Positions 10,249 through 37,395 of a stretch of 37,395 nt of DNA are shown piece by piece. The translations under genes were made by a program, and so were the position numbers. Source of the DNA: Isotricha intestinalis (Eukaryota > Ciliophora > Litostomatea > Vestibuliferida > Isotrichidae); assembly GCA_023807065.1 (NCBI GenBank), contig JAJJLU010003697.1:1-37395 (forward strand). Reading direction: 5' to 3'. The first letter of the stretch is position 1; each line of letters opens with the position of its first letter. The notes beneath the pieces were generated by a model. That model was not told where the DNA came from. It saw nothing but the letters and a program-made list of their open reading frames with translations, and did not search any database.

Positions 10249-10276
10249 ATGTCATCAGAGGATCCTAAGTTAAATA

Positions 10277-10310
<34 letters not shown>

Positions 10311-13300
10311 AGAAAAAAAAATAGAAAAAGAAGAAGATAGTAAAAACGATGAAAACAAGGAAGAAGAAGAAGAAGAAGAAAAGGAGGAAACAAAAGTAGT
10401 TGAAAAAATAAAGGAAAAAGAGGTATTAGAAGAAGAAAAAGAAGAACCAAAAAAAGAAGAAGAATCAAAAACTGAAATGATAAAAGAAGAACCAAAAATT
10501 ATCCAAAAAACATTAAATAAAAATATAACATCAAATTCTGTAGAAGAATTAGCTCCTAGTGAAAATATTGATATAAAAGCATCTGAATTACCAGAAGATA
10601 CAAATAATCCTAATATAAGTACAGAACAATTAAATATAAATGAAAATTATGATGATGGATTTATTCCAAATCAAACTTATGATATTTTACTTGATGATAA
10701 TGGTTTTCCAAAAATTAAAAAAGGTGAAATTTATTCTGTTGACATTGATACACAAATTAATTTTAAAATTAATAATTATGCTAATGTAAGTACTGAAATA
10801 AATGTAATTTCTAATGTTTATAATGATTTCCCAAATGTTTTTTTTATGAATGAATTAAATGATTATATTAGAGAAAATCCAACAATTTCTTTATTAAATA
10901 ATAATAATATTAAAGAACTTCCTTTAGATAAAATTAAAAAATATAGAATATCTCCTAATCAAATTAGTAATCTTATTAATTTTAAAATTAATTTAAAAAG
11001 AAATGGAATTTTTACTTTTATGATATTTTATAGAGCTAAAGATAATAGGAAATATCAATTAGCAAAGCCTTTTTATATTTTAGTTAATCCAATAATTGAT
11101 TTAGGAAGAGAAGAGAAAACAAATGGTATAATAAGAATATCATTAAATAAAATTCAACTTCAAAGTATTTTATCAAAAAATTTAGGAAAATTATCAAATT
11201 TTGAAAATTTCTATAAAGAACTATCATTATTGAAATATAATTTTATTCATTTAACATCTATTCAAGAATTATCATCATCTGAAAATTTATATTGTTTAAA
11301 AAATCAAAATGAAATATCTGATTCATTTTTTGATGAAAAAGAAAAATTATCAAATGAAGAAAAAATAAAAAAATTTAAAGAAAATATGGAATTATTAAAA
11401 ACCAAATATCATATAGGAAGTATAGTAGATATAGTATTAAATCAGACTTCAATAGAATCTAATTGGATTTATGATCATCCAGAATGTTGTTATACCTTAG
11501 ATAATTGTCCTTGGTTAACAGCTGCTTATGAATTAGATAAATTATTAGTTAATTATTCTAATTTATTTTTTGAAAAAAAAGTTGGTTGTGAAAGTGCTCC
11601 TTATTTAAATAATATTAATGATTTAAATGAAGCTATAGATGAAATGAGAAAAAGAATATTAAGAGAAAACTTTGAAGAATATTTTTTAATTCCTATTGAA
11701 GAATATATTTCTAAATTTAAAGAATATTATATAAACTTCGAAAAAAAACAAACTTTAGATGAAAGAAATATTTTATTCAAAGAATTAGAAGATAAATTTA
11801 ACATAAGTGTAAATTCTTCTGGAAAATTAATTTTAAATGAAGCTACAATTTATGATTTATTTTCTTCTTATTGTTCAAATTATGGTGAAAGTAGATTTGG
11901 AATTAAAATTAATATTGAATTAGTTTCTCTCTTACTTTTAGAAAATTATAGAGATATAAAAACAAATTCTTATCCAAATGAATTTACCTTTTTAAAAGAA
12001 GTTAAAAAATTTATTAATAAAATTAACCAAGATTGGACAAATAAAGTTTCTGAAATGATAAAAATTGCATTATTAAATGTGAAAGAATTTATAAGATATG
12101 AATTTTTAGAATTAAAAAGAACTGGAATTAGAAGAAAATTAATAGATAATTATTTTCATGTTATAGATCCAAATGATAAGAAAAAAATATTTTTATGTAA
12201 TGGATTTATAATGCAAAGTGAAGATCCAAAAGATAATTTCCCAGATTACACCAAAGAAGGAACATGGTATTTATTTAAAAGGAAAGTTATTATTTGGAAT
12301 GATTCTTTAAAATTAAATTATGGGGAGAATATTGAAAAAACGCCAAAATATTTATTAGAACATATGAAAAAATATATTTCTGATATGTCAAAAATATTTA
12401 ATGGATTATTTATAGATAATTTAATTACACTTCCAAAATTTATTGTCAAATACTTTATAAATGAAGCAAGAAAAGTAAATGAAAATTTATTTATTATATC
12501 TCAACTCCCAGAAAATAACAATAATTTAGAATCAGAATATATAAATGAATGTGGAATAAATTTATTTAGTAAAGAAATGTTATGGTGTACAAATCCATCA
12601 GAAATATTAGAATGTATAACTTCATTTACAAAAAAAAAATATAATCAAAATGAAAATGTAAATAATCAATTGAATATATTATATCCAGAAAATCCTCCAT
12701 CATTACTTTATGACCTTTCATTAGATAATCAAAGTTTTTATGAACAATATAATAATTTATCATTAAATTTATCAATAATGGCAAGTATAGGATTATTAAA
12801 TTGTGCAATTGGAACATCAAAAGGATTTGACCAATTATTTCCTTATCAACCAAGTATAGTAAAAGAAAGCAGAATTTATAATATAGATAAAAAATTTGAA
12901 AATTTATTATTAGAAATAAAAAAAAGATTACAACAAGAAGGACAAACAAAGGAAATTTTTTTTGAGTTTCATCCTAGAAATTCTGAAAATCCAAATACAA
13001 AAACAGTTAAATTAGCATTAAGTTCTCATGGATGGAAACCTGATATTCCATTAACAAAAATAAATGATAATTTATTTACTGTTAGATTAAGATTACCTCC
13101 TGGAAAATATCATTATAGATATGTTTTAGATGGTAATATTTGGACTTATGATTCTAGCCAACCAATGGAATTTGATGCAAATAAAAAAATAATTAATGTT
13201 GTTGATTTATGTATTGACACTAAAATATTATCTAGTGATATAAAATTGTTAAGAAGGGATTTAAATCTTATTCGAGATTCATTAAAAAATTTAAAAACAG

Positions 13301-13941
13301 AAGTTTTCATTCAAAATGATAAAGATTTAATTTGTATAATTAGAATGATTAATGATGGTAAAAAAGTTAAAATGAGTATTGACTCTAATTCAAGTAGAAG
13401 AGCTTCAATTGATAAAAGTGATAAAGATTATAATAGAAATATAGATAATTTTTATAGTATGGATCAATTGTCACTTGCTGAGAATAATTATAAAAATCAA
13501 AGACAAACAAATAATTATAATGATTTTGCAAGTAATCCTAATTTTAATATTAGAAATGTTAATTTTAATAATTATCAACGTGAATTCATTGATAGTATTA
13601 TTTATGAAGGTTATGCGGTTATTTGTAGACCTGGTTATGATAAAAATGATAATAATTCTATTAATGGTAAAATTATTGTTCCAGGTGAAATAACTGATTT
13701 TATTTGTGGTTGCTATATGAATATTGGTGATTTTGATATTAATAAATTTTTAAATGATAATGTACTTAAAGGTGTTAAAGGTAATGTATATTATTCAAAA
13801 GATGCTAATTTCTTGTCTTCTATTTCTAATGTGCTTTATCAAAATGGTAATACTATTATTGATTTTCATTCTATTTTACCAAATACTGTTATTGTTCTTA
13901 AAATATCTAGTGGAGGATATAATTTAAATAATTATCATTAA
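10249..13941 (+). CDS. Glycogen debranching enzyme (AGL)-like protein, likely catalytically dead, with inserted CBM48-like domain
   Basis: The protein has 1230 aa. Residues 1 to about 105 are Glu/Lys low complexity. Residues ~140-285 match the AGL N-terminal beta domain (KPFYILVNPIIDLG), and ~285-880 match its 4-alpha-glucanotransferase (GH13-like) domain: NWIYDHPECCYTLDNCPWL, NGFIMQSEDP, LLEHMKKYISDMSKIFNGLF, and AIGTSKGFDQLFPYQPSIVK. At ~900-988 lies a CBM48/AMPK-beta-like domain (HGWKPDIPLTK, LPPGKYHYRYVLDG). From ~1000 to the end is the AGL central domain (SINGKIIVPGEITDF, ILPNTVIVLKI). The amylo-1,6-glucosidase domain is missing. The nucleophile Asp723 is kept, but the acid/base Glu is Gln752 at the same 29-residue spacing as in human AGL, the RxD Arg is Phe721, the region I His is Gln399 and the region IV His is Leu825. 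I infer a glycogen-binding pseudoenzyme. Confidence 0.9.
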
Positions 13942-14411
13942 AGTGGAATTACTTTTTAGGTTATTTAATAAATAAATATTTAAAAGTATATAATGTGAAA
14001 TTTAAAATATATTTTAATTTAAATTATTTTTTAGATAAAGAGAAAGTTTTTCTTTTCTTATATCAACAATAAATTATTTTTCCTTTCTTTTATTGTTTCT
14101 TATTATTTTTTTTGTAAAATTGTTTTAAATTCCTTATGTAAACGATTTTTCAATATAAAAATATTATATTATTTGCTATAGATTAATAATAAAGAAATTT
14201 AGAATTAATAATAAGAATAAAAAATTTCATTATTATGAATAAATTAATAGTACTAAATTAAATCATATAAAAAAGAATTGGAAAATAAATTTATATCTGA
14301 TTTAAATTTTCAAAAAGAAGAAGAATTAAAAAATAAATCGAAAAAACTCAACATTATTATAATTTAAAGATAATTAAAAAATATATATTATTGTTTCCAT
14401 TTTATTGTTTT
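13942..14411. other. Convergent intergenic spacer
   Basis: This lies between the 3' ends of the debranching-enzyme-like gene and the USP gene. It is mostly A/T. A short codon-like stretch at about 14258-14364 reads SYKKELENKFISDLNFQK with no start codon and could be a coding relic. Nothing else is recognisable. Confidence 0.35.
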
Positions 14412-15983
14412 TTATTTATTCAAATTTTTAAAAGTAATATTTGTTTTATCATTATCATTCCTTACATATTCATCATCATTATAAATAATAAAAGAACTAC
14501 TTTCCTCATCTTCATTATTATAATTATTATTATTATTATTATTATTTTTATTTTTATTATATGAATCAATATAAACTTCTCCTATTTTATCATCAGAAAT
14601 ATTCAATTCATTAGATTCTTCATTAGGATTCTCTTTATCATTTATAAGACTTCCACTGTCATGAGTTAATAATGTAAAACTATTGTTTTTTTTGTGAAGA
14701 GAATTATCTTTATTTGTTTTTTCATTATTATTCTTTCCTAAATTATCGAATTGAAGTTCATTGTTTATTAAGGAACAATTCTTACTTCCATGTATAGAAA
14801 CATTTTCTCCTTTTCTCACATCAATTTCATAACAATTATTATATACTCTCTTAAAATCTTCTTTACTAAAAACTTGATTATTATCAATAGTAGAATTAGT
14901 ATTAAGATTATTAGTATAAAATAGCATGACAGGATGATAATAATTTTTAATAACATCAAATACTAAATCTTTATAAGATTTGAATTCTTTTATTTTAACA
15001 TCTTCTATAAAATACCAATTATTACCTTTATTAATTGCACAAGTATAATGACCATTATAAAATAAAACAATGGCATATAAATAATAAATAGTATTTAAAT
15101 TTGCATTTTTTTCAAAACTTAATAATCTTCCATTATAATCATAAAGAGGAATTAAATTAAAAACTTTACATACATCTGTCATTTTTGGAATTGGTCTATC
15201 CCAAGTAATATTAATTACAAAATAAGGTTTATTTTCATTGCAAATAAAAGCCTCTTTTTCTATTTCTGGATTTTTACATAAACATCCATCAATTCTTATT
15301 TCATGCTCAATAAATTTATTTACTGTTTTTGAAATTGAAAATAATTGATTTCTATAAGATTCACTTGATTGATTATGGATTTCTTCTAAAATTTCAAAAA
15401 TAAAAATTTCAAAAACAAAATAATTTGAATCATATTTATTTGATTTTTCTTTATTACATTTTGTACAATATATTCTGTCTTTTATATTCATTGAAAATAA
15501 TTCATGTGCTAAACATTTATTACAACTGAATGAACTTGGATTTTCAGTATTAAAATCTTTATTAGCATTATATAAATGAATTGAATTTAAAATATAATTA
15601 AATGTTTCTACTGGATCTCCTAATTCTCCTTCAATTATTTCATGAAAATAATTAGATAATGCTTTTCTAAAATATTTTATTGATAACGTATATTCAATTG
15701 GAGAATATTGACATTTTTTATAATCATCAAAAAAATTTTTTAAATGAAATATTGGATTTTTCTTTATATTTGGCTCTGATAAATCAAATTCAATTTGCCT
15801 TATTTTTATATTAAAATACTCAATATGAAATAATATTTGAGATAATACATTCAAAAAACAATTATTTTGCCCTTTAGGATTTACTAATGGAATTATTTGA
15901 TGATAAATCATGTGTTTTAAATTATCTAATATTAAACTATTATGTTTTATTTTTTTTTTGGGATTTGGGGTTTGGTCGTTCAT
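14412..15983 (-). CDS. Ubiquitin-specific protease (USP, peptidase C19), USP53/54-like Cys box
   Basis: The 523-aa protein has the USP catalytic core in residues ~25-357. The Cys box is NPKGQNNCFLNVLSQILFHI, with the candidate nucleophile Cys42; the QNNCFLN form is like USP53/USP54 and plant UBPs of that type, not the common GNTCYLN. A CxxC pair (Cys154/157) and a second (Cys173/176) form the zinc-finger region. FVINITWDRPIPK follows, then the His box YAIVLFYNGHYTCAINKGNN (His312) and YFIEDVKIKE (Asp328 as the third triad residue), ending with YHPVMLFYTN. All triad candidates are present, so it should be an active deubiquitinase. Residues ~360-523 are a Ser/Asn/Glu-rich tail with a poly-Asn run. 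The CAP gene lies upstream on the same strand, 234 bp away. Confidence 0.88.
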   Translation of the reverse strand: MNDQTPNPKKKIKHNSLILDNLKHMIYHQIIPLVNPKGQNNCFLNVLSQILFHIEYFNIKIRQIEFDLSEPNIKKNPIFHLKNFFDDYKKCQYSPIEYTLSIKYFRKALSNYFHEIIEGELGDPVETFNYILNSIHLYNANKDFNTENPSSFSCNKCLAHELFSMNIKDRIYCTKCNKEKSNKYDSNYFVFEIFIFEILEEIHNQSSESYRNQLFSISKTVNKFIEHEIRIDGCLCKNPEIEKEAFICNENKPYFVINITWDRPIPKMTDVCKVFNLIPLYDYNGRLLSFEKNANLNTIYYLYAIVLFYNGHYTCAINKGNNWYFIEDVKIKEFKSYKDLVFDVIKNYYHPVMLFYTNNLNTNSTIDNNQVFSKEDFKRVYNNCYEIDVRKGENVSIHGSKNCSLINNELQFDNLGKNNNEKTNKDNSLHKKNNSFTLLTHDSGSLINDKENPNEESNELNISDDKIGEVYIDSYNKNKNNNNNNNNYNNEDEESSSFIIYNDDEYVRNDNDKTNITFKNLNK

Positions 15984-16217
15984 TATTTAATTTAAAATAT
16001 TTTTATAATCATTAACTAATCATTTTTTCTAAATTTTTTTTTAGAATTATATTCAATGAGTAAATTAAATGATTTTTGAAATTTAAACAACTCAATTTAT
16101 AAAAATATGATTTTTTTTAATTATTATATAATAAAATAAATTCAAAAACATAAAATAAAACAAATTATAATACTAAAAATAAATCTTTTTATTTTTTTCC
16201 TGAGGAAAATAAATAAA

Positions 16218-16874
16218 TTATAGTGGAGGTAAAACATTTTCTTCAAAATATTGGGAAGTATTAATATTTCCAGCAGGATAATAATTTCCAACAGCAAAAT
16301 AAGAATTATCACTAGCTTTAGAATATCCAAATCCAACTTCTTTAGTTGCAGCCCAAACGACTTGTGTAAAATGACCAGTTCCACTTTTCCAACCTGGTTT
16401 CTTAAAATTATAATCATTAATTTCATCATACCAAGCTTGAGTCATATTAGAACCAGTACAATCAGAACCAAAACACATATAAATATTTTCTCCAAGTGAT
16501 TCACCTTTATATTTATTTTTTGAATGTTCTAATGTTCTGATTGATGCTAAATATTTTGAATATTTTTCTGCTATATCACATAATTCTTTATTTAATGTTA
16601 CTGGAGGTACTCCATGCTTTTTTCTTAATTCATTATGTTTGTTTAATGATTCTATTTGAAATGAAGAAAATATTGATTCTTCTTTTTTTTTATTTATTGA
16701 TAGTATCATTTTTTCTCCTTCATCTTCATTATTTTCATTTTCTATTATCTCTTTTGGTTCTTGTATTACTTGTTCTGCATTCTTTTTTGGAGATTCATTT
16801 TGTTGGTTTGATTGAATATTTTTTGGCTTTACTTCTTCTTTTGTTTCTGATGCTTTACTTCCTCCACAACCCAT
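16218..16874 (-). CDS. CAP/SCP-domain (GAPR-1-like) protein with N-myristoylation signal
   Basis: The 218-aa protein starts MGCGGSKASE. Gly2 with Cys3 and Ser6/Lys7 is a textbook N-myristoylation plus palmitoylation signal, and there is no secretory signal peptide. Residues ~30-65 are acidic. The CAP domain covers ~73-218: LNKHNELRKKHGVPPVTLNK, LEHSKNKYKGESLGENIYMC, QAWYDEINDYNF, GHFTQVVWAATKEVGFGYSK and FAVGNYYPAGN. The CAP tetrad is complete (His117, Glu129, Glu151, His168; the last pair is spaced 17 as in human GAPR-1). Most CAP proteins are secreted; the lipid-anchored cytosolic type resembles GAPR-1/GLIPR2 on the Golgi cytosolic face, which binds lipids and regulates autophagy in animals. 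I infer a membrane-attached cytosolic protein. It is divergent from the FHA gene, 207 bp apart. Confidence 0.9.
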   Translation of the reverse strand: MGCGGSKASETKEEVKPKNIQSNQQNESPKKNAEQVIQEPKEIIENENNEDEGEKMILSINKKKEESIFSSFQIESLNKHNELRKKHGVPPVTLNKELCDIAEKYSKYLASIRTLEHSKNKYKGESLGENIYMCFGSDCTGSNMTQAWYDEINDYNFKKPGWKSGTGHFTQVVWAATKEVGFGYSKASDNSYFAVGNYYPAGNINTSQYFEENVLPPL

Positions 16875-36921: not shown

Positions 36922-37395
36922 ATGAAAATTTTTGTAAAAACTTTAACAGGAAAAACACTAAAATTAGATGTAGAACCATCTGATACTATTGAAATTATTA
37001 AACTAAAAATACAAGAGCAAGAAGGAATTCCACCTGATCCACAAAGATTAGTTTTTGCTGGTAAACAGTTAGAAGATAATAGAACTTTGGCAGATTATAA
37101 TATCCAAAGAGAATCTACTTTACACATGCAACTAAGGCTTAGAGGAGGAGATACTTATTCAAAAGAAATAAATATAAAATTTATAAAAGATCAAAATAAT
37201 ACAAATAAATTATATTCTTCTATTTTTAAACCTTTTTTTCAAAAAGAAGAAGAAATATATGGTTTATTAAAGCTTTGTTTATTAAAAGAATTAGCATCAA
37301 AATTGGAAGACAATCAAATTAAGAAATTATCAGAATTATTATCATATATTTTATTAATTTTAAAAAATGGTTATATAATCAAATCAACAATAAAA
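36922..37395 (+). CDS. Protein with N-terminal ubiquitin domain, truncated by the window end
   Basis: The frame is open from ATG 36922 to the last base (158 codons visible; 3' end missing). Residues 1-76 are a ubiquitin domain ([20 protein letters not shown] ... [14 protein letters not shown]) clearly homologous to ubiquitin but with ~15-20 differences from the canonical sequence. Lys27, Lys29 and Lys48 positions are kept, Lys63 is Arg, Lys33 is Gln, Ile44 is Val, and Val70 is Gln. The LRLRGG end is kept and followed not by a second ubiquitin or a ribosomal protein but by [15 protein letters not shown] and a helical stretch ([33 protein letters not shown]). I infer a ubiquitin-like domain fused to a larger, probably multidomain protein. 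A processable fusion is possible since the GG is intact. The family of the tail is not recognised. Confidence 0.85.

Follow-up and report, generated by a model that had tools for sequence, protein, structure and literature searches.

A putative pseudo-glycogen-debranching enzyme family in the ciliate Isotricha intestinalis, with a possible role in binding storage glucan

Noncatalytic debranching-enzyme paralogues are already known from plants, where the isoamylase ISA2 (GH13_11) has lost its GH13 catalytic residues but has been maintained by selection throughout an entire lineage that also keeps an active paralogue, in storage alpha-glucan metabolism, as described in PMC12510319. The same source reports that noncatalytic ISA1/ISA2 complexes of maize shift the ratio of soluble to insoluble glucan, and that masking, recruitment, or chain-ordering has been proposed for noncatalytic ISA complexes; the reason plants keep the dead debranching subunit ISA2 is described there as not understood (PMC12510319). 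A second system is the eukaryotic glycogen debranching enzyme (GDE) AGL/Gdb1, represented here by that of Candida glabrata (CgGDE; PDB 5d06/5d0f). The third comprises the PTST/LSF1-type plant CBM48 proteins, which are described as non-enzymatic and as acting on starch. These proteins carry other partner domains.

The locus studied here lies in a 37,395-nucleotide stretch of DNA from Isotricha intestinalis (contig JAJJLU010003697.1), termed the window, and has the following layout:
10249..13941, + strand: putative pseudo-glycogen-debranching enzyme, 1230 aa (open frame)
10249..10650, + strand: N-terminal tail, low-complexity and Glu/Lys-rich, aa 1-134 (sequence)
11137..12492, + strand: glucanotransferase (GT, GH13-type) domain PF14701, aa 297-748 (Pfam)
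13000..13209, + strand: AMPK1_CBM (CBM48-type) glycogen-binding module, aa 918-987, with W929 and W965 (Pfam, alignments)
13246..13938, + strand: N-terminal three fifths of the central region of AGL, aa 1000-1230, with a low-confidence insert (alignment to the intact paralogue C564, structure matches)

Like ISA2, the window protein is a debranching paralogue in which the GH13 catalytic residues are lost, and one that selection appears to have maintained across its entire lineage alongside an active copy, in what would be storage alpha-glucan metabolism. A sequence-only reading of this DNA had called a pseudo-debranching enzyme acting as a glycogen scaffold or sensor new to its author; the kind has a plant precedent in noncatalytic ISA2 (PMC12510319), and what appears new here is the AGL-derived, multi-copy form, of which we found no instance in literature titles and abstract openings (a set with few subscription papers, and with preprints outside it). 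ISA2 belongs to the isoamylase class of Chloroplastida, whereas the window protein, in ciliates, derives from the eukaryotic indirect GDE (AGL): it is not of GH13_11 isoamylase descent, being a PF14701 protein placed inside the eukaryotic GDE tree. Unlike ISA2, its family has five copies, from which one of the two catalytic domains is missing. Experiments have been made on ISA2 complexes; a search for published experiments on the window family found none. The proposed non-enzymatic action on a storage glucan is shared with the PTST/LSF1-type proteins, which, unlike the window protein, are not GDE-derived.

The frame is confirmed as a homologue of the eukaryotic-type GDE. It matches PF14701 (hDGE_amylase) at 261.8 bits (cut-off 27, E 1.8e-77) and PF16561 (AMPK1_CBM) at 43.5 bits (gathering cut-off 26.8, E 3.7e-11), the latter module being additional to the sequence-only reading. 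That reading had noted the absence of the amylo-1,6-glucosidase domain, and Pfam indeed finds no GDE_C (PF06202) domain, with its Asp/Glu pair, in the window protein. It had also stated that the central domain remains, which holds for the first three fifths and fails for the remainder: the C-terminal part corresponds to about residues 866-1012 of C564, in which hGDE_central occupies 866-1117, and Pfam gives no hGDE_central match in the window protein. Against the AGL/Gdb1 equivalog TIGR01531 (cut-off 1399.55) the window protein scores 190.2 bits, a failure that decides little by itself because C564, at 935.1, also falls below the cut-off. The comparison with a GDE crystal structure that the reading had proposed was made by fold prediction (omitting aa 1-129), which gave a confident GDE fold with CgGDE as the best structural match; of the six Cg structures matched, four reach Cg residue 869-874 and two reach 995-997. 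The window protein resembles AGL/Gdb1 in predicted fold, in domain order to about Cg residue 870, and in its nucleophile position, and differs from it in the loss of the Arg, three His, and the Glu, in the absence of the glucosidase domain and probably of M2, and in an internal CBM48. CgGDE is also described as having two secondary glycogen sites, M2 and GC, which the window protein has probably lost along with those domains.

The best PDB match of the CBM module is AMPK beta1, and W929 and W965 align with two Trp of that protein, which we take to serve in ligand binding. Each position holds Trp in 20 of the 22 compared rows; at W965 the paralogues C579 and C940 have Tyr. The module is shared, among the matches listed, by alveolate GDEs of Tetrahymena, Moneuplotes, Cryptosporidium, Neospora, Besnoitia, and Vitrella, and in the intact ciliate C564 it lies ahead of the central domain. 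The aligned alveolate GDEs P0125, P0099, and P0097 keep the full active-site pattern HRDHEHD, unlike the window protein, which reads QFDIQLD at the same positions:
11443..11445, + strand: Q399, replacing the region I His (alignments)
12205..12207, + strand: F653, still aromatic, where Cg has the main-chain-binding Trp W470 (alignment; site described in PMC4837477)
12409..12411, + strand: F721, replacing the RxD Arg (Cg R533) (alignments)
12415..12417, + strand: D723, nucleophile position retained (Cg D535) (alignments)
12424..12426, + strand: I726, replacing the region II His (Cg H538) (alignments)
12502..12504, + strand: Q752, replacing the acid/base Glu (Cg E564) (alignments)
12721..12726, + strand: L825-D826, replacing the region IV His-Asp (alignments)

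The references for these alignments were the C. glabrata and human GDEs; both Cg rows carry the engineered E564Q, and the natural Glu is present in the human row. The alignment is gap-free between D723 and Q752, a distance of 29 residues that equals that from Cg D535 to E564. The sequence-only reading had recognized this exact spacing in an alignment to the GT part of AGL, together with the retained nucleophile D723, Q752 in place of the Glu, F721 in place of the Arg, and Q399 and L825 in place of His, and all of these assignments are borne out; the loss of the region II His (I726) comes in addition to its four changes, and D826 is kept beside L825. In CgGDE, the engineered substitutions E564Q and D535N are reported to abolish GT activity completely (PMC4837477), so that a Gln occurring naturally at this position (Q752) should by itself suffice for inactivation. 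Contacts to glucan are partly kept, with Cg W470 represented by F653, P450 by N634, and F566 by P754. The window protein is very probably a pseudoenzyme.

Six PF14701 loci occur in the source genome (G000; 57.3 Mb in 2153 contigs). One of them, C564, is the separate full-length AGL for which the sequence-only reading had suggested a search: it encodes 1660 aa with hGDE_N, GT, AMPK1_CBM, central, and GDE_C domains, and its HRDHEHD pattern is intact. The other five are truncated paralogues, namely the window gene (1230 aa), C155 (1114), C647 (1401), C579 (1119), and C940 (1113). All five lack the Arg and all three His, and four lack the acid/base Glu, which C647 keeps. Each of the six GDE genes is matched by a public protein of 98-100% identity (the twin of the window gene spans aa 77-994), and these proteins come from contigs sized differently from those of G000. 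Since the siblings share the losses (four the Arg and His changes, three the Gln) and near-identical public proteins exist, chance or assembly error is excluded. A split enzyme with its glucosidase half encoded elsewhere was also considered and is ruled out, the sole GDE_C match in the genome being fused within C564.

Besides its twin, the nearest relative of the window gene among the matches listed is P0003 (74% identical), and the nearest relatives of C155, with the same scope, are P0006/P0004 (79-80% identical); these sequence identities suggest that the window/C155 duplication predates the split from the P0003 and P0006/P0004 lineages. The paralogues lie in duplicated segments (window 10249-16874, L008:2877-8331, and L010:2616-8121) with the same relative orientation of genes. 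After the window gene come a UCH-like gene, which shares 51% identity (387 columns) with its counterpart after C155, and a CAP gene, which shares 45% identity (166 columns) with its counterpart after C579.

Three protein searches, two of them with 7988 and 7986 candidates scored and the third with 120 of 455 matches listed, yielded at least 160 further protein ids; among the matches listed, HRDHEHD is intact in 112 of 148 aligned rows. Trees were built with the catalytic columns excluded, from 74 of the 148 rows, from 45 of those 74 (a careful mixture tree), and from 67 chosen rows. A single pseudo-GT clade of 34 rows, with all five truncated paralogues among them, emerges in the 67-row tree; outside it, seven of the 67 rows have lost residues within the active clade and the other 26 are intact. 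In the 45-row mixture tree the pseudo clade (15 rows) is supported at 100/100 and the node uniting it with the active clade at 96/95; SH-aLRT for this node is 89 in the 67-row tree. By these trees the pseudo-GT clade is an old gut-ciliate group, sister to the active clade, and the gut clade as a whole groups with Tetrahymena, Ichthyophthirius, and Moneuplotes rows in the GDE tree. The rows losing GT residues inside the active clade are P0058/P0065, P0059/P0060, P0061, and P0064/P0069, some of which are altered at the glucosidase Asp/Glu too.

Within the pseudo-GT clade the Arg is absent from every row (34/34), the region I His is replaced by Gln in 33/34, and the region II His is lost in 32/34, being kept in P0157 and P0158. 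The acid/base Glu is kept in two rows (C647 and P0018) and the region IV His in one (P0018), while the nucleophile position holds Asp in 23 and Glu in 11. Parsimony requires three changes for the Arg (67 rows) and two for GDE_C, the latter over 61 rows that omit six partial or doubtful ones (P0159, P0030, P0065, P0026, P0160, and P0161) and with the GDE_C absence in P0155-P0158 read from proteins predicted from contigs hardly longer than the gene; on this count the Arg is taken to have been lost at least three times and the glucosidase domain at least twice. An arrangement of all Arg-less proteins as a single clade was rejected (AU p 5.7e-51, on a quick tree with long branches and a group chosen post hoc). 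The early branch P0018 lacks the Arg and the region II His and keeps the remaining catalytic residues, which suggests that these two were lost first. Several of the long pseudo proteins, P0015, P0016, and P0019 among them, retain GDE_C and its Asp/Glu pair in altered surroundings, and the glucosidase Asp is changed in P0017 and P0018; because such long members still carry GDE_C, the GT site of the window lineage probably died before the glucosidase domain was dropped. Other pseudo-GDE relatives (P0143-P0146 and P0155-P0158) are 2282-3053 aa long; in the three scanned (P0143, P0155, and P0158) the GT domain begins at aa 1022-1271, and the sequence ahead of it matches no Pfam family.

Given a barrel fold that is predicted to persist, glucan contacts that are kept in part, and a retained CBM, and with five copies standing beside one intact GDE, we lean toward the dead GDE paralogue working as an alpha-glucan-binding protein on the ciliate storage polysaccharide (amylopectin/glycogen). 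Together, the dead GT barrel and the CBM48 would bind alpha-glucan and leave it uncut, polymer chains being taken up by the groove of the barrel and by the module; bound chains may then be held, shielded, or ordered, or, alternatively, partner enzymes may be placed on them. This class of role is borrowed from the noncatalytic plant ISA complexes and applied to the ciliate storage polymer. Glucan binding by the window protein is likely in itself, and service as a polymer scaffold, rather than another use, is the somewhat favored reading of its sequence. The sequence-only reading had imagined a glycogen scaffold or sensor, and the presence of a glycogen-binding module in the sequence strengthens that proposal. 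The five dead relatives keep their sugar-binding parts, probably in order to organize the starch-like store of the ciliate.

The main rival, which overlaps with the alpha-glucan-binding explanation, is a regulatory subunit in the manner of ISA2, in which the pseudo-GDE hetero-oligomerizes with C564 and tunes its binding or activity, with no action on the polymer of its own. One intact GDE and five dead paralogues do share one genome, and maize ISA1 is reported to bind its noncatalytic paralogue ISA2 (PMC12510319); however, with the whole glucosidase domain gone any shared interface would be altered, and a ratio of five dead genes to one intact gene would be unlike that of a simple partner, so that we consider this model unlikely. 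It is improbable that the protein is a glucan-status sensor or signaling scaffold in the manner of AMPK beta, as the AMPK beta1 match of its CBM module and the PP2C and protein kinase encoded within the same window might suggest: the module was inherited from an enzyme, being present in intact C564 and the alveolate GDEs named above, Pfam finds no AMPK-beta interaction domain in the window protein, and the frames preceding the paralogues on C155 and C579 have no Pfam match, PP2C included. That the proteins remain catalytic by way of changed residues, through some GH13 reaction that uses D723/D826, or that at least C647 does so with its Asp and Glu, is highly improbable. D723 and D826 are retained in the window protein, the Glu is kept by C647, its twin P0012, and P0018, and the region II His by P0157 and P0158, but the losses common to the five paralogues (Arg and three His in all, Glu in four) stand against it, and the change of the nucleophile Asp to Glu in 11 of the 34 clade rows fits relaxed catalysis.

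Sequence comparisons support purifying selection on the window gene. Codon maximum likelihood (F3x4; four chosen pairs; aa 135-1230) gave pairwise omega of 0.023-0.071, with 2dlnL of 224-593 against omega 1, and YN00 gave 0.035 and 0.038 in two comparisons, both of C579/C940. By the cruder NG86 method, omega over aa 135-1230 was 0.30-0.64 among the short paralogues; in comparisons with the active gene it was 0.87-1.13, reaching 1.47 for single domains; values near or above 1 for distant pairs are attributed to extreme AT bias and saturation, for which reason the codon fit is preferred. Of the positions that never vary across 13 gut-ciliate rows whose GT site is intact, 62 of 112 in the GT domain, 11 of 17 in the CBM, and 10 of 13 in the C-terminal part are still invariant among the eight short pseudo rows; of the conserved GT positions, 39/112 vary in the short clade and 11/112 have switched. 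The sequence-only reading had argued for selection from a frame intact despite lost catalysis, and the trees, the codon-model omega, and the conservation in paralogues and relatives agree with it. Decaying pseudogenes or assembly artefacts, of which domain loss and active-site loss would be the expected product, are almost certainly not the explanation, given stop-free frames of 1113-1401 aa in all five paralogues in very AT-rich DNA (window 19% GC), a codon-model omega far below 1, and near-identical public proteins and diverged relatives that share the same substitutions.

A broader proposal, which we put forward tentatively and would not yet favor, is that gut ciliates independently evolved noncatalytic, AGL-type, multi-gene paralogues that help pack storage polysaccharide, in convergence with ISA2, and that repeated GT loss shows glucan-holding to be separable from catalysis. 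If true, debranching catalysis would have been lost a second time, independently and repeatedly, making the ISA2 question testable in a replicate lineage, one from a group for which stores of glycogen or of starch granules are reported (PMC10284877, PMC10978948). Glycogen is given as the main store of Entodinium caudatum (PMC10284877), and Balantidium ctenopharyngodoni is pictured with starch granules (PMC10978948). Because rumen and hindgut ciliates of this group are reported to digest starch for their animal hosts (PMC10284877, PMC11316547), ciliate glucan storage bears on digestion. Furthermore, annotation by homology would give many pseudo-GT proteins the name GDE and mislabel them as enzymes.

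Other glucan-related genes occur in G000, in keeping with the alpha-glucan-binding explanation. There are 37 AMPK1_CBM matches on many contigs (L013-L032), 36 of them above the cut-off and six within GDE genes. The 13 best lie in open frames of 270-333 aa, one of which, C61, was scanned and has an AMPK beta interaction domain; the matches suggest that AMPK-beta-like proteins are expanded in this genome. Of ten CBM-bearing frames scanned, seven (L033-L039) are starch-synthase-like (PF08323 and PF00534) with a C-terminal AMPK1_CBM, a count that, as the frames were selected via the CBM, says nothing on the share of synthases with one. A type I pullulanase (L061:847-3222; TIGR02104, 592.7 bits, cut-off 504.5), possibly, at a guess, acquired from bacteria, is encoded on contig C155, which also holds a pseudo-GDE, and branching-enzyme-like frames are present with scores below curated cut-offs.

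The sequence (CCCCAAT)3 occurs 840 times in forward and 746 times in reverse orientation in G000 (reversed control 0 and 0), and among the first contigs its places are the first 71 bases on the + strand or one high-coordinate cluster on the - strand; the repeat is present at neither window end. The telomere repeat (CCCCAAT)n is also reported from B. ctenopharyngodoni (PMC10978948) and from Muniziella cunhai, a trichostome with the standard code and an AT-rich genome (PMC11316547). By its telomeres the source of G000 is most likely a trichostome litostome ciliate, and a non-ciliate source, such as a trichomonad or an anaerobic fungus, was considered and is rejected by both the GDE tree and the telomeres. 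At 36922-37395 of the window, a ubiquitin-family frame runs off the window end.
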